A stretch of DNA of 64,000 nt from Candidatus Hydrogenedentota bacterium (GTDB lineage Bacteria > Hydrogenedentota > Hydrogenedentia > Hydrogenedentales > JAEUWI01), in the NCBI GenBank assembly GCA_019637335.1, contig JAHBVV010000009.1, positions 1-64,000 of the forward strand, in the 5' to 3' direction. The notes under the pieces are model-generated. The model was not told where the DNA came from, did no database searches, and was given only the letters and a program-made list of their open reading frames with translations. This document shows, in pieces, positions 14,617 through 60,537 of the stretch (position 1 is the stretch's first letter; every line of letters starts with the position of its first letter). The position numbers and the translations under genes were made by a program.

Positions 14617-17600
14617 TTACGGCGACACCTCGCAGTTTCTGAGGCTCGACTTCAAGGCCAAGATCCCCTCTTCGGTCACGCCCGAGCTCGGCGTGATGTG
14701 GAGGCGTTTGAGCGAGGGCAGGCCCTGGAAGAAGTCGATGCTCTGGTTGGAAATGGAGGCGCCCATAACGGTCACGTCGGCGAGGTAGGGCTGTTGCGAG
14801 AAATTGTTCAGACCGGCGTCGGTCATCCGGTAGAGGTTGATCAATTCAAGCGTCCGCAGATGCTTGAAGCGGCTCAGGGCGCCGAGGCCCGCGTCGGTGA
14901 CGTCGATTTCCTTCAGGGAGAGGTGGAGCAATCCGGTGTGGCGGCCGACATGCGCGAGCCCGCTGTCTTTCGTGTTGGGGCCGGAGAGGCCAACGCCCTG
15001 AAGGGCGCCCGGGTCTATAGCGTCCAGGAATGAGAGGTCGCTGGTGTCGTACCCAACTTCCAGGCGGGCCTCAACGCCTTCGGCCAGGGAGACGGATCCC
15101 TGCGCCTGGCCGCGTTCGGTCCAGCTTCCGGGGTTTTCGGGGTTCCACGGCCGGGTGAATATGCGTCCGACGGACGCCGCGGGGAAGGCGAGCGTGCGCG
15201 CGGGCGGCCTTGCGACAACCTGCCCGAAAGGCACGAGTTCCGCCGGGCGGTCTTGTATCACGGCGCGGGGCAGGACGGTGGCAAGCAAATCCCGGCCATC
15301 GCGGCTGATGGGCGCGTCGACCTCGAGTCTGCGCAATTCCGGCAATGCGGCCAGATGGCCCAGGTTATCGTCGTTCAGGATCAGGCGGGGCAGCGAGAGG
15401 GACCAGATGTACGGGGCGTCCAGCGTACGCAGGACCGAGAGGTCGGCGGCGGCCTCGTCGTTCATTTGCAGGCGGAACACCTGATCAGACATGGCGTTCA
15501 CGGCGCCCAGCGCGCCTTGTTCGACGGGCTCCCAGGCGCCGGTGTCAAAGGCGCTGCGCGCCACGGCGTAGAGATCGCCGAGGGAACGGTCGGCGGGGAA
15601 ATGCAGTACGATTTCCTGGACGGTCTCGACGGGGAGCGGCGTGGGCCTCAAGTAATTATTGTAGACGAAAATGAAGGCAATCCCCGCGGCGACGATGCCG
15701 CCCATGACGAGGTACGGGATGCGGCTTCCCGTGGAATAGCGCTCCTTGGCGCGTTTGAGCAGGAATTCCGTGCGCGCGAGGGTGTCGTCCTGCTCGTCGA
15801 GGGTCTTCCGCAGGGTTTCGACTTCGGCGCGGGCCTTTTCGAGGCTTTCCAGCTGCCTTCGTTCCTCGTCTTTGAGGAGTTCCAATTCCTTGTGGAGGGC
15901 TTCCTGCGAGGTGTCGGCGTCGGTGCGCTGCTTCTCCAGGAGCGCGAGCTCGCGCTTGAGCTCGTCGACGGCGGCCTGATTTCGGGCCTTTTCCTCGTTG
16001 GCGCGCTGTGCGGCGGCCTGCTGATCGGCGAGGGCCTGCTGGAGGGCTTCGAGCTCCTTGCGGGACTGCTCCAGCGCGGCGTTCTTTTCTTCCTCGTTCT
16101 TGCGAAGGGATTCGAGTTCGCCGGCGAGTTCGGATTCGGAGGATGCGGCTTCCCGGGCCTTGGCCTGGATTGCGGCGAGCTCTTCTTGAAGCCGCCGCAT
16201 CTGCTCCTGGCTGGCCTCGTCGGTGTCGGCGGCTTTCTGGACTTCCTGTTCGCGGGCGGCGAGGGCCTGGCGGAGCTCTTCGACTTCCTTGCGGGCATCC
16301 TCGAGGGCCTGGGATTTGCGGGACTCGTTTTCACGCAGTTGTTCGACTTCGCTCGAGAGGGTCTTTTCGGAGGAGTGGGCCTCGGTCGCCTGGCTGCGCA
16401 GGCCTTCGAGTTCCTTCTGCATGGCGGCGACCAGCGCTTCCTGCTCCGCATTGCTCGCACGGGCGTCATCCGCGGCGCGTTCGCGCGCCTCCAGGGCCTC
16501 GCGCAGCGCCACGAGTTCCTGGCGCGCGTCGTCGAGATCCTTTGTCTTTTGTGATTCGCTGGAGCGGAGCGAGTCGAGTTCCGCGGTGAGGTTCGCCTCG
16601 GAGGAGGATGCCTGGCTCGCCTTTTCGTGCAGCGAAGCGAGTTCCTTCTGCATTTCCGCGAGGCGGGCTTCCTGTTCGCTGCTGGTTTGCGCGGCCTGCT
16701 CCATGGCGGCCTCGCGCTCGCCCAACTGGCCGCGCAGGGCTTCCAGTTCCGCCCGGGCGTCGTCGAGGGTCTTGCTTTTCTCGGCTTCGCTTGCGCGCAG
16801 GGTTTCGAGTTCGGAGGCCAGCTGGGTTTCGGACTGGGAGGCCGACCGGGCCTCGTCCTGGAGCTTCGCAAGCTCCTGTTGCATCGCGGCGACCTGGGCG
16901 GCCTGCTCCTCGCTGGCCTTCCGCGCGGCCTCGACGGCGGATTCGCGATCATTGAGCTGGCTCTTGAGGGTTTCGAGTTCGCCCCGCGCGCTTTCGAGCG
17001 TTTCGGACTTGGAGGAGCCATCCTGGCGCAGCTGTTCGACTTCGCGGGCGAGGGTTTTCTCGGATTCGGCGCGTTCGTGCACCTGCTGACTCAGGGCGGC
17101 CAACTCGGCTTCGAGTTGCTCGCGCGCCTCCTGGCTCATGCTGGCCACGTCCTGCGCTTCTTTTTCTCGCTGCGCCAGCGCGGACTTCAATTGCTCGAGA
17201 TCGCCGCGGGTCTTTTCGAGGTACTCGGCCTTTTCCGCTTCCTTGGCCCGGAGGGACTCCAGTTCCGCCGCCAGGGCTTTTTCGGAGGAGGACGCGGCCT
17301 CGGCCTGCCGCTGAATGGCGGAGAGTTCGCCGTGGAGGGCGGCGATGGCCTCTTCCTTCTCCTTGCTTCGCGCTTCCGCCTCGGCAACTTCCCGTTCGCG
17401 CTCGTCGAGGGCGCCGCGCAACTTCGTCAATTCATTGCGCGCGTTTTCGAGGGCTTTGGTCTTGCTGCGTTCGTTGTTGCGGAGTTGTTCGAGTTCCGCG
17501 AGCAGCGCCTGCTCCGACGTGGAGGCCTGGGCGGCCTGTTCCTGGATGAGCGCGAGTTCCTGGTTGAGCTTCGCCAGGGCGGCTTCGCTCTCGCGGCTGC

Positions 17601-18879
17601 GGGCCTCGGCCTCCCGGACTTCGTTCTCCCGCTCGTCGAGGGCGCCGCGCAACTGGGTCAATTCGCCCCGTGCATTTTCCAGCGCCTGCGCCGCGCTTTT
17701 CTCGTTGGCGCGCAACTGCTCCAATTCCGCCTGCAACGCCTCCTCGGAGGAGGACGCGGCGGCGGCCTGGCTCTGGATGGCGCTCAGTTCGCTCTGGAGC
17801 GCGGCCATGGCGGCCTCGCTTTCGCGGCTGCGGGCTTCGGCGTCGGCGATGGCGGCCTCGCGGTCCTTGAGGCTGGCCTGAAGCTGCCCGAGTTCGGCGC
17901 GCGCTTGCTCCAGTGCCTCGGATTTGCTTCGTTCGTTGGCGCGCAGCTGTTCGAGCTCGGCGTGCAGGGCTTTTTCCGAGTCCGCCGCGCTGGCGGCGTT
18001 CTGCTGGATCTTTTGCATTTCGCCCTGAAGCTGCTGGATGGCGGCTTCCTGCTCGGCGCTGACGCGCTCGGCCTCCGCCACCGCCTTCTCCCGTTCCGAG
18101 AGCTTGTCCTGGAGGGAGGTGAGGGCGCCGCGCGCTTCCGTGAGGGCCTGTTCCTTGGTGGATTGCTCGGAGCGCAGCCGCTGTAATTCATCGTGCAGCT
18201 GGCGTTCCGATTCTGCGGCGGAGGTGGCCTCGGCGTTCAGCTCGGTGAGCTGTGCTTCCAACTCGGCCATCCGCGCTTCCTTGGCCTCGGAATCCTCGAC
18301 GACCTGGCGGATGGATGCCTCGCGTTCTTCGAGGAGGAGCTTGAGGTTTTCCAGCTCATCCTGCGAGCGCTTGAGGTTGGCGGCCTTCTCCTGTTCCGCG
18401 GCGCGCAGGGCGTCCAGTTCCGCCTGAAGGGTCGATTCCGATTCGGAGATGGAGCCGGCGTGGGATTTGAGGCGGGTGAGCTCCTCTTGCAACTGGGCCA
18501 CGGTCTGCTGGAGTTCGGCCTTGTCGAGCGCGTCGGCCAGCCGGTTGTCGAGCGTCTGCCGGAGCGTGTGGATGTGCTTATCCTGATCGGCGGCGGCTTG
18601 TTCGAGGCGCTGAAGCTGGGGGGCGTCGAGGAATCCGGCGAGGGCCTCGTACTGCTCTCGGGTGAGGGCGATCTGGCGCTGGGCGGCGTCACATTGCTCG
18701 AGCGCCTCGTCGACCCGGTTCAGGGCGGCGAGGTTTCGGGCATGCATGTAGGCGAGCACGGGGTTGCCGGGCAAGGTTGCGTTGAGCGCTTCAAGAAGGT
18801 TCAGCGCTTCGCTGTGCCTGCGTTCCCGGAAGTGTTCGTTGGACGCTTGAAACTTGTCTTCCAAGGTCGAAAACTGCAT
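14617..18879 (-). CDS. 1420-residue membrane protein of tandem 77-residue coiled-coil units with LRR-like C-terminus
   Basis: I recognise the architecture but no named family. Residues 1-85 form a TPR-like helical region (RRHSEALNLLEALNATLPGN). From about 88 to 1050 the chain is continuous coiled coil rich in Glu, Ala, Gln, Leu and Ser; from residue 145 it consists of eleven full tandem units plus one partial one, each 77 residues except one of 74, marked by SSSEEALQAELEQLR-like starts. One membrane helix lies at about 1053-1077 (LVMGGIVAAGIAFIFVY). The C-terminal 340 residues include leucine-rich-repeat-like segments (LRTLELINLYRMTDAGL, LKRLHITPSSGVTEEGI). With N-terminus inside, the coil would be cytoplasmic and the LRR part outside. 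A scaffold, polarity or motility role is possible but unproven. ATG 18879 follows a TTGACA promoter. Confidence 0.85.
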   Translation of the reverse strand: MQFSTLEDKFQASNEHFRERRHSEALNLLEALNATLPGNPVLAYMHARNLAALNRVDEALEQCDAAQRQIALTREQYEALAGFLDAPQLQRLEQAAADQDKHIHTLRQTLDNRLADALDKAELQQTVAQLQEELTRLKSHAGSISESESTLQAELDALRAAEQEKAANLKRSQDELENLKLLLEEREASIRQVVEDSEAKEARMAELEAQLTELNAEATSAAESERQLHDELQRLRSEQSTKEQALTEARGALTSLQDKLSEREKAVAEAERVSAEQEAAIQQLQGEMQKIQQNAASAADSEKALHAELEQLRANERSKSEALEQARAELGQLQASLKDREAAIADAEARSRESEAAMAALQSELSAIQSQAAAASSSEEALQAELEQLRANEKSAAQALENARGELTQLRGALDERENEVREAEARSRESEAALAKLNQELALIQEQAAQASTSEQALLAELEQLRNNERSKTKALENARNELTKLRGALDEREREVAEAEARSKEKEEAIAALHGELSAIQRQAEAASSSEKALAAELESLRAKEAEKAEYLEKTRGDLEQLKSALAQREKEAQDVASMSQEAREQLEAELAALSQQVHERAESEKTLAREVEQLRQDGSSKSETLESARGELETLKSQLNDRESAVEAARKASEEQAAQVAAMQQELAKLQDEARSASQSETQLASELETLRASEAEKSKTLDDARAELEALRGQLGEREAAMEQAAQTSSEQEARLAEMQKELASLHEKASQASSSEANLTAELDSLRSSESQKTKDLDDARQELVALREALEARERAADDARASNAEQEALVAAMQKELEGLRSQATEAHSSEKTLSSEVEQLRENESRKSQALEDARKEVEELRQALAAREQEVQKAADTDEASQEQMRRLQEELAAIQAKAREAASSESELAGELESLRKNEEEKNAALEQSRKELEALQQALADQQAAAQRANEEKARNQAAVDELKRELALLEKQRTDADTSQEALHKELELLKDEERRQLESLEKARAEVETLRKTLDEQDDTLARTEFLLKRAKERYSTGSRIPYLVMGGIVAAGIAFIFVYNNYLRPTPLPVETVQEIVLHFPADRSLGDLYAVARSAFDTGAWEPVEQGALGAVNAMSDQVFRLQMNDEAAADLSVLRTLDAPYIWSLSLPRLILNDDNLGHLAALPELRRLEVDAPISRDGRDLLATVLPRAVIQDRPAELVPFGQVVARPPARTLAFPAASVGRIFTRPWNPENPGSWTERGQAQGSVSLAEGVEARLEVGYDTSDLSFLDAIDPGALQGVGLSGPNTKDSGLAHVGRHTGLLHLSLKEIDVTDAGLGALSRFKHLRTLELINLYRMTDAGLNNFSQQPYLADVTVMGASISNQSIDFFQGLPSLKRLHITPSSGVTEEGILALKSSLRNCEVSP
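15730..18447 (-). repeat. Twelve tandem 231-bp coding repeats (77-residue units)
   Basis: Unit starts in the protein fall at residues 145, 222, 299, 376, 453, 530, 604, 681, 758, 835, 912 and 989. Spacing is exactly 77 residues in every case but one (530 to 604, 74 residues). Each unit follows the scheme Ser-x-Ser-Glu, ELxxLR, Lys, LExARxEL, LRxxLxEREx, then a Glu/Ala helix and a closing QxELxxI segment. 77 equals eleven heptads or seven hendecads, so the periodicity preserves the coiled-coil register. The DNA copies differ at many sites, so the expansion is not recent. Confidence 0.9.
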
Positions 18880-19007: not shown

Positions 19008-20501
19008 GTGGCCGATACGTCTGAGGTTCTGGTGCTGTCCTGCGCTTGCGGGCAGAAGATGAAGATTCCCGCGGATGGCATGGGCCGCACCTTCAAGTGC
19101 GTCCGCTGTGGCGCCCACATCAAGGTCTCCGAAGAAAACAGCGCGCCCCTTCCAAGCCAGGCGCCGCCGCCCGCGGAGAAACCGCCCGCGCCGGAGAAGC
19201 CGCCGGCGCCCGAGCGGGAGCCCGCGGAGCCACCCGCCGCGCAGAAGCCCATCGGGGACTTGCTGGTGGGGGCGGGGCTGATCACCGAGGAGCAGCTTGC
19301 CGAGGCGCTGAGCCGCCAGAAGTCGCAGGGGGGCAAGACCTTCGAGATACTGCTTGCGCTGGGCTATCTCGACAAGGACGCGCTGCACGCGTTTCTTTCG
19401 CGGCAGCCGGGCATCGCGAACATTGATCTTTCGCGCTTCAATATCAGCCCCGAGCTGGTGAATCTCATCCCGAAGAAGCTCGCGGTTGAGAATCTGGTGC
19501 TGCCGATTGACCAGCTTGGGAAACTGTTGACGGTGGCCATGGCGTGCCCGCTGGACGTGGCCACGATCCAGCTTATTGAGCGAACGACGGGCCTGAAGGT
19601 CAAGGCGATGCTCTGCAAGCTGGAGGATATCCACGCGGCCGTCCAGAAGTATTACCCGGAGCGGAAGCATTTTGAATTGAGCCCGTCGAGCTTCGACCAC
19701 CTGCCCGGGGCTTCGGCTCCGCGGGACAAGGTGGATGAGAAGCTGAAGAAGTGGAACGGGATGATGGTTTCGGGTGAGCGCCTCAAGCAGATTGCGGAGG
19801 AGATCGCGCCCCCGGAGGTCACGCTGGATCTTGTTACGGCGGTTGTCCTGAATGAGCCGGCATTGGGGGCGACGCTGCTGCGGATTGCGAACAGCGAGCT
19901 TTACGGTCTTCGCGGCCAGGTCGATAGCATACCAATGGCCGTCGCTGTGATTGGAAAGCCGGGCATACAGCAGTTCCTGACGGAGTTCCTGGAGCCGGCG
20001 GACCCGAAGGCTATAGCGATCATTGCGCCGTGGGTCGAGACCAGCCTGCGGGCCGCGCAGTATGCGCGCGATCTGGCGCGCGAAAGCGGCGTGCTGGGCC
20101 CGCATGTGGCGTATTCGCTCGGCCTGGTGTCGGAGTTGGGCCGCATGGCGATGGCGCTGGTGTCTCCCCTGCAATACAAGCGCGTCAAGTCGAATTTGCA
20201 CGGCGAGCCGCTTGCGCAGGCTGAGTTGAAGGTGTTTACGATGGATCACTGCGAGGTTGCGGGGATGCTCGGGGTCCAGTGGCATTTACCGGCATCGATC
20301 ACGCGGCCGCTGGAGTATTACCTCGCGCCAAAGGAGGCCAAGGAGATGGCGCCGCAGTGTCACCTGCTCGCGCTGGCGGTCGGGTTGGCGAACAAGGCCG
20401 ATGAAGACCGGGAGAAGGTGCTCGCGGCGTACAGCGCTTCCATTGAGGCGCTTGGGATATCGGCTGACGCCGTTCGCAAGATAGTCGGGTCCGCGCGGTA
20501 A
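19008..20501 (+). CDS. Zinc-ribbon / MshEN / HDOD regulatory protein
   Basis: A 497-residue cytoplasmic signalling protein starting at GTG 19008 with GGAGAG upstream. Residues 10-40 form a zinc ribbon (CAC at 12-14 and CVRC at 31-34). A Pro/Ala/Glu-rich linker follows to about 80. Residues 84-215 are a type II/IV secretion ATPase N-terminal (MshEN) domain with IGDLLVGAGLITEEQLAEAL; this domain binds c-di-GMP in MshE, but the usual Arg-Leu-Gly-x-x-Leu boxes here read PIGDLL and TFEILL, so binding is uncertain. Residues 245-430 are an HDOD domain (AVVLNEPALGATLLRIANS, and GLVSELGRMAMAL). HDOD proteins lack catalytic HD residues and act as regulatory adaptors, often in motility. It forms an operon with the Nif11-like gene 28 bp downstream. 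Confidence 0.8.
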   Translation: MADTSEVLVLSCACGQKMKIPADGMGRTFKCVRCGAHIKVSEENSAPLPSQAPPPAEKPPAPEKPPAPEREPAEPPAAQKPIGDLLVGAGLITEEQLAEALSRQKSQGGKTFEILLALGYLDKDALHAFLSRQPGIANIDLSRFNISPELVNLIPKKLAVENLVLPIDQLGKLLTVAMACPLDVATIQLIERTTGLKVKAMLCKLEDIHAAVQKYYPERKHFELSPSSFDHLPGASAPRDKVDEKLKKWNGMMVSGERLKQIAEEIAPPEVTLDLVTAVVLNEPALGATLLRIANSELYGLRGQVDSIPMAVAVIGKPGIQQFLTEFLEPADPKAIAIIAPWVETSLRAAQYARDLARESGVLGPHVAYSLGLVSELGRMAMALVSPLQYKRVKSNLHGEPLAQAELKVFTMDHCEVAGMLGVQWHLPASITRPLEYYLAPKEAKEMAPQCHLLALAVGLANKADEDREKVLAAYSASIEALGISADAVRKIVGSAR

Positions 20502-22095: not shown

Positions 22096-22239
22096 CGCTC
22101 CAGACAGGGTCCGGGCATGCCGTCGGCAGCCGCCTGTATGAGGCGTTTGGCGGGGTGTGCGCCAAATAGTGCGCGTGGTGACTACCAGGCCACCCGGCCA
22201 GAGCATCGGTTGGCCGGTCCGAATAGGAGCTCGGGTGTA

Positions 22240-23559
22240 TTGCTGTTCTTCAAAGCAAAGAAGTCGATAGGCCTCGATATCGGCACCCATTCCGTCAAGG
22301 CGGTGCAAATGTCCCGGCGGGGCGGTCGCCTGTGTGTGGACGAGGTGGGCTACGCCCTGGTCGACCGGAATCAGGTCAACGCGGATCCCGTCATGGCGCA
22401 CGCGTCGGCGGTGGCGGAGGCCCTTTCGGGCATGAACCTGAAATCGAGCCAGATTGTGGGGGCGCTACCGGGCCAGACGGTGGTGATCCGGTATCCACGG
22501 TATGCGGAGACGAATCGCGAGCAGCTTGACGCAATCGTCAATCGCGAGGCGGGCCAGAACATCCCCTACGATTTGAACGAGGTATCGCTTGATTGGACCT
22601 TGCTCGACGAAGTGGAAGAGGCCGGCCAGCGGCAGTTGAAGGTGCTGCTGGTGGCGGCTAAACATGAGATCATCGACTCGCGCGTGCAGATTATGGAAGC
22701 GAGCGAGCTGCAATACAGTATTCTCAGCGTGGATTCGCTCGCGCTTTCCGACGCGGCGGAGGCCTGCGATTTTCTCCGTGTGGGAGAGACGGTCGCCCTG
22801 ATCAATATTGGCCTGACGTCCGCGAGCATTCACTTCGTGAAGGACGGTGTGTCGAATTTCATTCGCGATGTGAATTGGGGCGCGCGCGAGTTGATTCACG
22901 GGATCGCGAAGGAGTTGCGCTGCGACTATGAAGAAGCGGAGCGGCGTCTTCAGGACTTCCTGTCGCGCGGACCGGCCCCGGCGCCCGCGGTCGCGGCTCC
23001 CTTAGCCGGCGAGCCGCTTGACAATCTCGAGGATTCGCTTGGGGGCGGGGCCGAGGGAATCCAGACGCCGGAGTCATTGAGCGATTTTGGCGACGATCCG
23101 TTTGGGGAGGCGGGTTACCGGCCCAAGCCGCCCGCGATGGGTGGCGGCGGGTCGCTCCTCGATCCACTGGACGACGAATTCGGCGGGGAGATGGGCGGCG
23201 CCATCACGGGCGCGAGCCCGATGGGCATGGCGGAAGAGGTTGTGCCCGAGATGGACGAAATCGTGTCTTCTTCTCTCAACCGGATGGTTTCGGAGATCCG
23301 GCGTTCATTTGATTACTACGAACATCAACTTTACGAGCGCCCGGTGGACCGCCTGATTGTGAGCGGCGGGATCGCGCATTCGACGCTGGTATGCAGTGTC
23401 TTGCTCGAAGAGCTGGGTGTGGAGTCCGTGGATGTGGCGAATCCGATGAACAGCGCGCTGTACACGGGCGACGAGTTCGCCATGGGCGCGATGGCGGAGC
23501 ATCCGTCGCAGTTCATGGTCGCTGTGGGGCTCGCAGCACGGGGAATGGCGGATCTATGA
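22240..23559 (+). CDS. pilM: Type IV pilus inner-membrane platform protein PilM, with acidic low-complexity insert
   Basis: A 439-residue actin-like ATPase of the PilM family that binds the N-terminus of PilN on the cytoplasmic face. It starts at TTG 22240, ten bases after AGGAG; the product begins FFKAKKSIGLDIGTHSVKAVQ, the phosphate-1 loop. Later signatures are QLDAIVNREAGQNIPYDL, LINIGLTSASIHFVKDG (phosphate 2) and DRLIVSGGIAHSTL (adenosine loop). An insert at about residues 243-333, rich in Gly, Pro, Asp and Glu, divides the fold and makes the protein about 90 residues longer than usual (around 350). First gene of pilMNOPQ; it overlaps pilN by ATGA. Confidence 0.92.
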   Translation: MLFFKAKKSIGLDIGTHSVKAVQMSRRGGRLCVDEVGYALVDRNQVNADPVMAHASAVAEALSGMNLKSSQIVGALPGQTVVIRYPRYAETNREQLDAIVNREAGQNIPYDLNEVSLDWTLLDEVEEAGQRQLKVLLVAAKHEIIDSRVQIMEASELQYSILSVDSLALSDAAEACDFLRVGETVALINIGLTSASIHFVKDGVSNFIRDVNWGARELIHGIAKELRCDYEEAERRLQDFLSRGPAPAPAVAAPLAGEPLDNLEDSLGGGAEGIQTPESLSDFGDDPFGEAGYRPKPPAMGGGGSLLDPLDDEFGGEMGGAITGASPMGMAEEVVPEMDEIVSSSLNRMVSEIRRSFDYYEHQLYERPVDRLIVSGGIAHSTLVCSVLLEELGVESVDVANPMNSALYTGDEFAMGAMAEHPSQFMVAVGLAARGMADL

Positions 23560-24227
23560 TTATCATCAATCTACTTCCCGAAGAACTTCGCCCGATCAAG
23601 CGGACGCCGCTGCCGCACCTGCTGAGCGTGGTGGCGCTTCTGCTCGCGCTTGCCAGCATGGGCTGGATGTTTGTCTCCATCACGGCGCGTATCGCGGGCA
23701 CGCGGGCCGATTTGGCCAAGGCGAACAGCGAGCTGGCGGGCCTCAAGGACGTGGTGGAAGAGTACAACGCTCTGAGCGCGAAGAAAGAGCAGCTGGAGAA
23801 CAAGATCAATGTTATCCAGGAAATCCTCAGCGACCGGATTATCTGGTCGGCGCAGCTTCACAAGCTATCGACGCTGACGCCCAACAATTTCTGGTACCGC
23901 CGGATCCGGGAAACGTCGAAGACAGTCACGATGGAGCGGGTGCAGATAGACGAGAAGACCGGCCAGGCGGTGCTGGACAAGGACGGGCGGCAGAAACTGA
24001 TCCGGGAGAACATCCGGCGTCCGATGCTGGAAGTCTCGGGGTATGTGATCAACGACGAGCAGGGCGTGAACTCCGTTGCGACATTGACGCAGAAGACGGC
24101 GGAGGACCCGGACTTTTCGTCGATGTTTATCCTGGACTCGCCACAGATAACGGATTCAGAGTACAACGGCTATTCCGTGCGCGGATTTACGCTGGAGTAC
24201 CGGATTGATACCGGAGGCGCACCCTGA
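23556..24227 (+). CDS. pilN: Type IV pilus assembly protein PilN
   Basis: A 223-residue bitopic inner-membrane protein. The N-terminal INLLPEELRP motif (residues 4-13) is the cytoplasmic segment that docks into PilM. One membrane helix spans about 22-45, followed by a periplasmic coiled coil (LAKANSELAGLKDVVEEYN) and a ferredoxin-like domain that pairs with PilO. Start ATG 23556 overlaps the pilM stop (ATGA). Its own stop overlaps the pilO start. Confidence 0.9.
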   Translation: MIIINLLPEELRPIKRTPLPHLLSVVALLLALASMGWMFVSITARIAGTRADLAKANSELAGLKDVVEEYNALSAKKEQLENKINVIQEILSDRIIWSAQLHKLSTLTPNNFWYRRIRETSKTVTMERVQIDEKTGQAVLDKDGRQKLIRENIRRPMLEVSGYVINDEQGVNSVATLTQKTAEDPDFSSMFILDSPQITDSEYNGYSVRGFTLEYRIDTGGAP

Positions 24228-24820
24228 TGCTGGATTTCTTTAAAGGAACCGTAACGCCGAAGGATTGGGCCTTTGTGGGCGCGGTGCTGGGGCTGACGGG
24301 GCTGATCTGCGCGGGCTTTTATTTCGGGCTCTACCGGGGGCGGGAGGACGTGCTGGCGCAGGTGACGGCGGAGCTTGCGGATACCCGGCGTGAGCTTAAC
24401 GAGGCCCGCGAGACCCAGGCGAAATTTGACGAGTTCAAGCTGGAGGCGGAGAAGGCGGAGCAGCTGGTGCAGCTTTTCGAAGAGCGGCTTCCCGAGGAGC
24501 GGGAAATACCGCGGCTCCTGGCGCAGTTCGAGAGCCGGGCGAAGGAGCTCGGGTTGAGCGTGGAGTTGACCCAGCTTCCCACCAAGACCGATCTCAACAA
24601 GGAAACCATACCGTATGAGGTGATCGCGCGCGGCGATTTCCACGAAATCGTACAGTTCATTAACCTGCTCGAGCGGGACAAGCGTTACCTGAAAGTGTCG
24701 AATCTGAATATCGGTGAGGAAGTTGCGGGCGTTTCGCAGGCTTCCTTTCACCTGAGCACGTTCCGGTTTATCCAGCGGGCAACAGATATGAGCGTGGCGA
24801 GCAATGAACCAGGAAAATAA
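24227..24820 (+). CDS. pilO: Type IV pilus assembly protein PilO
   Basis: A 197-residue bitopic protein with a short cytoplasmic N-terminus, a membrane helix at about 15-38 (FVGAVLGLTGLICAGFYFGL), a periplasmic coiled coil to about 85 and a ferredoxin-like C-terminal domain (IPYEVIARGDFHEIVQFINLLE), the standard PilO layout. PilO forms heterodimers with PilN in the alignment subcomplex. Start and stop overlap those of pilN and the next gene. Confidence 0.88.
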   Translation: MLDFFKGTVTPKDWAFVGAVLGLTGLICAGFYFGLYRGREDVLAQVTAELADTRRELNEARETQAKFDEFKLEAEKAEQLVQLFEERLPEEREIPRLLAQFESRAKELGLSVELTQLPTKTDLNKETIPYEVIARGDFHEIVQFINLLERDKRYLKVSNLNIGEEVAGVSQASFHLSTFRFIQRATDMSVASNEPGK

Positions 24821-25352
24821 GAAACAAGTCATTATAGCCGCCGTTCTGGGCGTGGTGCTGGTATGTGTACTCGTATACCAGTTTCTCATCGCGGGCGGCC
24901 CGGCGGCGCCCACGCAGACCGCGTCCTCCCGGCCCGCCACCGCGGCGGGCTCGGCGCCCGCGGCGCCCGCCACCGCGGCAACGCCAGCGCGCCTGCGCAA
25001 GGTGGATGTGGATCTGGACAAGCTGATCCGCAATATCGAACCGGTGACGTTTATCTACAACAACGAACGGATCACGAGAAATCCGATGACTCCGCTTGTT
25101 GGCCGGATCTTTTCGGCCAGCGCCACGGACCAGCCGGCGCGCACCTCTATCGGTATTGATTTCAGCATCCGGCAGAAGAAAGTTACCGGGATTATTTACA
25201 ACGAATACAACCCGGTCGCGGTGGTGGACGATGAATTGGTTACGGAAGGACATCAGTATCCGGACGGCGTGATCGTATTCAGGATCGAACCCAAGCGGGT
25301 TTGGTTTGAGTGGCGCGACTCGCAAATACCCGTAGAGCTGAAGGAGCTATAA
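24804..25352 (+). CDS. PilP-position inner-membrane protein
   Basis: A 182-residue protein in the place of pilP. It has an N-terminal membrane helix (about 8-30, VIIAAVLGVVLVCVLVYQFL) rather than the lipobox of classic PilP, then an Ala/Pro/Thr-rich linker and a beta-rich domain with NPMTPLVGRIFSA, VTGIIYNEYNPVAVVDDELV and GVIVFRI, resembling the PilP/GspC homology region that contacts the secretin. It probably couples the PilNO complex to PilQ. The assignment rests on position and weak similarity. Confidence 0.75.
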   Translation: MNQENKKQVIIAAVLGVVLVCVLVYQFLIAGGPAAPTQTASSRPATAAGSAPAAPATAATPARLRKVDVDLDKLIRNIEPVTFIYNNERITRNPMTPLVGRIFSASATDQPARTSIGIDFSIRQKKVTGIIYNEYNPVAVVDDELVTEGHQYPDGVIVFRIEPKRVWFEWRDSQIPVELKEL

Positions 25353-59664: not shown

Positions 59665-60537
59665 TCACTCGCCCGGGGTATTGTTGCGGTCTTCCTCGGG
59701 TCCGCCGTCCGGGGGCGTTTCGCCGCCGCGCTCGGTGAACCACCGCAGGAGGAACCCGCGATCCTTGTTTTGCATGCAGGCCTTCAAATAGAGGGCGGCG
59801 GGATGATCCGGGAATCGCGCCAGAAACCGGTTCATGGCCTTCACGCCCTCCAGCTCGCCATGGCGGAGGTAGAATGCAAGCCCTTCCAGCAACATCGCGC
59901 GCGAATCCAGCGCTACCTGGTTCCGCATTCGCTCGTACAGGCGCAGGGTTTCGTCGTAGCACCGGTTCGCGGCTTCGCGATCACCCGATTGGTCCCATAG
60001 TATACCTTCCAGCAGATGGGCCTGTACAAGATCCGGCGAGCGGGCCGTCAGGGCTGTGCAGATGGCCAGGGCCTCGCCGTACTGCCCGGCCCGGCCCAGC
60101 AGCGTGGCCTGGAGCAGGGCGGCGTCGTCGAATTCCGGGTCGGCCTCGGCGGCTGCGCTCGCCTGGCGGATGGCCTCTTCAAGATTTCCCTGGCCGAGGG
60201 CGGATTCGGCGCGCTGGTAGTGGTGTTGGGCCGCGTTTGTGGGGTTGTAGGCGCGATCGACGCCGGCCTCATAGCATCCGGCCAGGAGCGGGATGGCGCA
60301 CAGGGCGAAGCGCCTGACGGGAAGCCTTGGGGACCTGAGGGACGGCAGGGACGGCAGGGACGGCAGGGACAGCAGGGACAGCAGGGACAGCAGGGACGGC
60401 AGGGGCTTCAGGAAACTCCGGGAGCGCCGCGAATCTCGGATGGGATGGCCCCCGTTCCGTCGCCGATGTCTCTGTCGTCCCTGGAGTCCCTGCAACCCCG
60501 CGGTATCCGCGTGTCTCGCTGCGTCCGTGGCTCCCAA
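59665..60537 (-). CDS. TPR-repeat lipoprotein with repeat-rich N-terminus, start uncertain
   Basis: The part from RRFALCAIPLLAGC onwards is clear: a lipobox LAGC and then about five TPR-like units (HHYQRAESALGQGNLEEAI, LLGRAGQYGEALAICTAL, LEGILWDQSGDREAANRCY). The upstream part is odd. No ATG or GTG precedes the lipobox closely; the nearest usable start is TTG 60537 just after the larA stop, giving a 90-residue N-terminus in which seven 9-bp units encode (Leu-Leu-Ser)/(Leu-Pro-Ser). Possibly the repeat expansion displaced the original start, or CTG is used. 290 residues as given. Confidence 0.7.
   Translation of the reverse strand: MGATDAARHADTAGLQGLQGRQRHRRRNGGHPIRDSRRSRSFLKPLPSLLSLLSLLSLPSLPSLPSLRSPRLPVRRFALCAIPLLAGCYEAGVDRAYNPTNAAQHHYQRAESALGQGNLEEAIRQASAAAEADPEFDDAALLQATLLGRAGQYGEALAICTALTARSPDLVQAHLLEGILWDQSGDREAANRCYDETLRLYERMRNQVALDSRAMLLEGLAFYLRHGELEGVKAMNRFLARFPDHPAALYLKACMQNKDRGFLLRWFTERGGETPPDGGPEEDRNNTPGE
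60338..60400. repeat. Seven tandem 9-bp units in the TPR lipoprotein gene
   Basis: Seven exact-length units AGGGACGGC or AGGGACAGC occupy 60338-60400 in the order three GGC, three AGC, one GGC. As the unit is three codons, copy-number change keeps the frame. Similar GTCCCTG words also appear near 60470-60495. Confidence 0.9.

Follow-up and report, generated by a model that had tools for sequence, protein, structure and literature searches.

What does a giant coiled coil, built from units of one fixed length and ending at a membrane helix, do in a bacterium, and what holds its unit at 77 residues? The question is raised by a reverse-strand gene (14617..18879) within the window, i.e., the whole 64,000-nucleotide stretch of Candidatus Hydrogenedentota DNA that was analysed; we know of no cultured representative of this phylum. 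The 1420-residue product comprises a TPR head, a coiled-coil array, a membrane helix and a leucine-rich repeat (LRR) ectodomain (coordinates of its parts, given below, are all on the reverse strand). The lag-77 BLOSUM autocorrelation for residues 146-1060 was 1.84 (42% identity), compared with 0.18 +/- 0.08 for shuffles that kept the heptad composition (n=200), and lags 154 and 231 were next best; the 77-residue period proposed by the sequence-only reading is thus present. A unit profile placed full units from residues 154, 231, 308, 385, 462, 539, 613, 690, 767, 844 and 921, with partial units at both array ends (residues 88-153 and 998-1047). The eleven full units (residues 154-997, 15889..18420; ten of 77 residues and one of 74) and the last partial unit (15739..15888), which runs up to the membrane, agree with the earlier count, to which the N-terminal partial unit is now added. 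The 74-residue unit (residues 539-612, 17044..17265) lacks three residues at unit positions 42-44, within the polar layer of heptad 7. The units had been called exact, which holds for their length and fails for their sequence: mean identity between units was only 40%, so that they are alike in length and not in sequence, and Tandem Repeats Finder found no DNA-level array of the unit period at the gene.

The domains proposed for the two ends of the protein were borne out. The head (residues 1-153, 18421..18879) consists of two TPR hairpins followed by the onset of one long helix; it exceeded the cut-off for TPR_19 (27.0 bits vs 25), and an AlphaFold2 model of the first 230 residues (pLDDT 92) showed two TPR-like hairpins plus a single helix at 86-229 (pLDDT >90 over most of its length), with Foldseek matches to TPR domain structures. 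A single membrane helix was placed at about residue 1054 (residues about 1055-1077, 15649..15717; hydropathy 2.27), and its flank on the coil side is K/R-rich. The model of the C-terminus (pLDDT 84) contained this helix at positions 8-30, then two five-stranded beta modules with LRRs after each. Alignment and model together placed the first beta module (LxFPxDxSxGxLYxR..W..EAxG) at residues about 1089-1139 (15463..15615) and its second copy (RTLxFPxxSxGxxxxRPW...AxGxV) at about 1228-1275 (15055..15198). The C-terminal LRR stack (residues about 1281-1420, 14620..15039), with repeats of about 24 residues, drew no Pfam match from the single sequence; the C-terminus matched many LRR structures by profile search, and the model and Foldseek also matched LRR proteins. 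Other proteins of the same genus also contain the beta-module/LRR segment, which thus serves these bacteria as a common ectodomain module. In two of these proteins (L069:4934-8935, on contig C23 of genome G000, and L071:3420-7361) it is fused to an M56/BlaR1-like membrane peptidase that also bears carboxypeptidase-regulatory-like domains; these fusions suggest a periplasmic sensor module shared within the phylum. A 649-residue protein (L070:5950-7896) has TPRs followed by the beta-module/LRR region, and is in its architecture a coil-free cousin of the coil protein.

No named family with this layout emerged, as had been anticipated: Pfam returned only generic coiled-coil and TPR families, and no NCBIfam model reached its cut-off. 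The best Pfam match was ATG16 (57.6 bits vs 33.7), obtained through six stretches inside the repeat; we take it to reflect coiled-coil character in general, and it is not credible that a bacterial protein acts as an ATG16. NCBIfam matches to SMC/Rad50 proteins lay far below cut-off and were confined to the coil (SMC, 107.7 vs 567), and do not place the protein in that group. A search for solved structures related to the coil found none, and a literature search on Hydrogenedentes coiled coils or 77-residue coiled-coil repeats returned nothing relevant.

We examined if the unit is kept elsewhere in the phylum. Relatives (E<=1e-20) were present in 50 of 68 genomes of the class, which in the set searched made up all of Candidatus Hydrogenedentota; none of 115 Verrucomicrobiota genomes matched the head profile, which did match a Hydrogenedentota-like genome at 5e-20. 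Unit spacings in 32 relatives were 77 residues (265 times), 74 (22 times) and 71 (6 times), and spacings of 70 or 84 did not occur among these 32 proteins; the other spacings, mostly terminal in the array, include a step of 73 residues that recurs between the N-terminal partial unit and the first full one. Spacings of 77 again dominated in 13 further proteins, with irregular stretches in three (L140, L141 and L144). The first half of the array is irregular in L140 and L141 (genomes G053 and G054, family f5), with spacings of 28, 32, 52 and 24, which sets these two apart from the other families studied. The search for homologues with other unit counts, suggested earlier, was positive, with 7 to 19 full units. 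A seven-unit protein occurs in nine of the ten families examined (f2, f3, f7, f8, f9 and f10, some members of f1 and f5, and f11 as far as its array can be recognised), and other members have 9-19 units: 9 to 13 full units in the remaining members of f1 and f5, and 13 to 19, with runs of 74, in f4. The stretches on either side of the array are also fixed in length, except on the membrane side in f11. The head is 153 residues long and gap-free in 23 aligned homologues, and in the other families the membrane helix starts 52-60 residues (~55) after the last full unit, a range from which single proteins depart slightly; in f11 the post-array stretch is ~190 to 640 residues, while the seven units stay at exactly 77. 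The coil gene was not found in several f5 genomes that are 93-100% complete and contain PilM (G010, G029, G033 and others); this appears to be a lineage loss.

Unit anatomy was assessed in 250 full units from 32 proteins. Hydrophobic core positions fell in two of the seven heptad phases (0.63 and 0.47; the others were <=0.06) and no 11-residue phase preference stood out in this sample; the unit is therefore 11 heptads, and of the two decompositions of 77 that had been offered only this one stands, the other being 7 hendecads. A 74-residue unit resolves as 9 heptads plus 1 hendecad and a 71-residue unit as 7 heptads plus 2 hendecads, so hendecads would occur only in shortened units. Polar residues occupy the core in heptad 2 (Glu at a9, Lys at d12), at d33 (Arg), in heptad 7 (a44, mainly Ser, and d47, Arg/Ser) and at a72 (Glu); the other core layers are apolar, those of heptad 10 being alanine. 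The tropomyosin core likewise has alanine and charged layers. The polar layers of heptads 2 and 7 are 35 residues apart, and the 3-residue deletions that produce 74-residue units occur only there (positions 7-11 or 42-45). We looked for a tropomyosin-like quasi half-unit of 38.5 residues and saw no strong correlation, shifts of 35 and 42 being slightly higher. When unit positions were ranked by conservation, a, d, e and g positions took the first 34 places and no b, c or f position came before rank 35; the conserved positions thus sit almost wholly at the predicted helix-helix interface. Across units, position g is acidic and e is basic (E1-R6, E22-R/Q/K27, E57-R/Q62), and this g-e' charge pattern is as expected of a parallel dimer, which the molecule probably forms.

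Units were orthologous by position within the genus, and comparison of a 13-unit with an 11-unit protein of that genus showed that units 3 and 9 had each been duplicated whole. Same-index units were the more alike in 174 of 179 pairs of seven-unit proteins, across families (38.5% vs 33.1%), so the seven-unit array looks ancestral and unhomogenised, as judged from unit identities. The number 77 could represent mere inheritance, i.e., the units spread by tandem duplication, heptad-sized insertions and deletions are simply rare, and the length itself has no function. Units do duplicate as wholes, and SMC proteins, which are also coiled coils, had nearly constant matched lengths in the same genomes, so that exact length is not unique to the coil gene. 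We nevertheless consider this explanation unlikely: identity between units has fallen to ~34-40% across the phylum with no 7-residue insertion or deletion, the 3-residue deletions are found at two places only, and the post-array stretch in f11 varies freely. The SMC comparison itself favours constraint over neutrality, since SMC arms have been found by experiment to be sensitive to length (PMC5344682). The protein had also been suggested to define a length; this stands insofar as nine of the ten families examined show a quantised membrane distance, and does not extend to f11, where the post-array stretch varies and the units are constant. Since total length varies in f11 and the units do not, the constraint would bear more on the unit than on how far the molecule reaches.

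The neighbouring genes offer a candidate partner. Divergently transcribed from the coil gene is a gene for an MshEN plus HDOD protein (19008..20501, forward strand; both domains by Pfam), in which residues 81-133 (19248..19406, forward strand) carry a predicted two-part c-di-GMP-binding motif of the MshEN region (NCBIfam NF053729, 54.6 bits vs cut-off 38), a motif described previously (PMC5013675). This gene was adjacent and divergent in 24 of the 36 loci with enough sequence, from ten families, and was missing from the other 12; it is the most persistent neighbour of the coil gene, and MshEN-HDOD proteins have many paralogues. Beyond it lie pilM-pilN-pilO-pilP-like type IV pilus genes (22117..25352, forward strand; PilM and PilO by Pfam, PilN and PilP by position). 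Close PilM relatives on named contigs came almost entirely from Candidatus Hydrogenedentota, which placed the DNA in that phylum. Further along the window, 60338-60404 holds 7.4 copies of a 9-bp repeat (AGGGACGGC, 96% matches); the TPR protein ORF there (59665-60537, reverse strand) has an uncertain start, relative to which the repeat is either internal or upstream.

The coil protein could accordingly be read as a polar scaffold for type IV pili, of the kind exemplified by PodJ and working with the neighbouring PilMNOP machine. Its domain order is that of PodJ (PMC8980812), PilM-N-O(-P) genes lie near the gene, beyond the MshEN-HDOD gene, in seven loci (families f1, f2, f3 and f10), and the c-di-GMP motif of the neighbour is related to pilus ATPases. 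Against this, the examined loci of f4, f5, f7, f8, f9 and f11 showed no pilus linkage, and almost every genome of the phylum has PilM, among them G010, G029 and G033, where the coil gene was not found; a strict role in pili is for that reason improbable, and we give the scaffold reading as a whole a low probability. The protein is also not assigned to PodJ by its content: the ectodomain is LRR plus beta modules, and showed no peptidoglycan-binding match.

A membrane-anchored cortical filament was also considered, in which the 77-residue (~11.4 nm) repeat would set the stagger of molecules packed side by side, as in the myosin rod or crescentin. The strict long-range period would suit such packing, changes in length by whole units would preserve the stagger, and there is a weak Pfam match to the crescentin (CreS) rod, which at 10.7 bits vs a cut-off of 100 does not make the protein a crescentin-like rod. 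The outer positions b, c and f are, however, not conserved, and no charge period at 77/n exceeded that of heptad-preserving shuffles other than one marginal value at 77/10 (p 0.025 among 19 tests). Because the charges show no long period beyond chance save this one, myosin-like packing is disfavoured, and a filament seems quite unlikely.

The side of the membrane on which the coil lies was judged from charge. Lys and Arg residues numbered 149 before the membrane helix and 64 after it in 32 homologues, with more before it in 28 of the 32, and no hydrophobic N-terminus or signal peptide was detected; on these grounds the coil is predicted to lie in the cytoplasm. A coil that instead bridges the periplasm from inner to outer membrane, like Omp-alpha of Thermotoga, would equally be a rod-like coiled coil with a membrane helix, and is highly improbable given the lack of a signal peptide, the positive charges on the coil side, and a length of ~140 nm, far above the Omp-alpha span of roughly 50 nm (PMC5082667).

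The explanation that we favour, with moderate confidence, is a stalk or tether at the inner membrane, consisting of a cytoplasmic parallel dimer that changes length by whole units and carries a TPR head, possibly under c-di-GMP control. The earlier suggestion of an inner-membrane scaffold or tether is retained as the most economical reading, which we infer from architecture. The N-terminal residues, about 1050 of them, would form a cytoplasmic, parallel, in-register homodimeric coiled coil with the TPR head at its free end, and the LRR domain would lie in the periplasm behind the single membrane helix. Each unit would be a self-contained stretch of 11 heptads in which the polar layers of heptads 2 and 7 may act as soft joints, and whole units gained or lost would account for most changes in rod length. 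Such a stalk could keep a cytoplasmic partner bound by the TPR head at a set distance from the membrane, and the divergently encoded MshEN-HDOD protein may confer control by c-di-GMP. Telling against this explanation are the many MshEN-HDOD paralogues and the 12 loci without this neighbour, the variable total length in f11, the f5 genomes in which the coil gene was not found, and the irregular arrays of L140 and L141. Predicted rod lengths (computed at 0.1485 nm per residue, one unit being ~11.4 nm) are ~142 nm for the protein described here, ~98 nm for the seven-unit form, and up to ~238 nm.

A more specific version of the tether, suggested by analogy with golgins, is that unit number sets the reach and that c-di-GMP controls the capture of a cargo or compartment by the TPR head. 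This is a speculative extension with perhaps a small chance of being correct; if true, the natural 7-to-19-unit series would be a ready-made length ruler experiment. The series of rods of about 98 to 240 nm would in any case permit hypotheses on length, joints and register to be tested. A single gene family here combines an exact unit, a widespread seven-unit form, independent gains of whole units and deletions at two polar layers, and a poorly known phylum gains a phylum-wide, unnamed cell-envelope protein together with a candidate signalling partner.

Among known systems, PodJ has N-terminal cytoplasmic coiled coils, a single membrane helix and a C-terminal periplasmic repeat domain (PMC8980812). 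The likeness to the coil protein is one of layout (cytoplasmic coil, one membrane helix, periplasmic repeats), with no kinship claimed; in PodJ the coiled coils are six distinct segments without an exact unit array, and the protein also contains a disordered region and, in the periplasm, a TPR and a peptidoglycan-binding domain, whereas the coil protein has its TPR at the cytoplasmic end and LRRs outside. In golgins, giantin in particular, an extremely long coiled-coil spacer separates a membrane segment at the C-terminus from a binding region at the opposite end, and length is better preserved than sequence (PMC5082667). The resemblance of the coil protein to these, in its long spacer and C-terminal membrane segment, is a comparison of how they may work, drawn from architecture and implying no homology; golgins are eukaryotic, have irregular coil breaks and no such ectodomain, and no exact 77-residue unit is reported for them. 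Tropomyosin forms one uninterrupted coiled coil made of seven units of similar length (PMC5344682). Its unit is about 40 residues, the molecule is soluble, and its outer binding surfaces are conserved, whereas the outer surface of the coil protein is not. The arms of SMC proteins naturally fall into distinct length classes separated by about 100 residues (PMC5344682). Like the coil protein they are constrained in length, and the matched length of SMC is almost constant across the same genomes; the coil protein has neither the ATPase head nor the hinge of SMC. What is new relative to these long coiled-coil spacers is the exact unit and a copy number that is quantised across a phylum.
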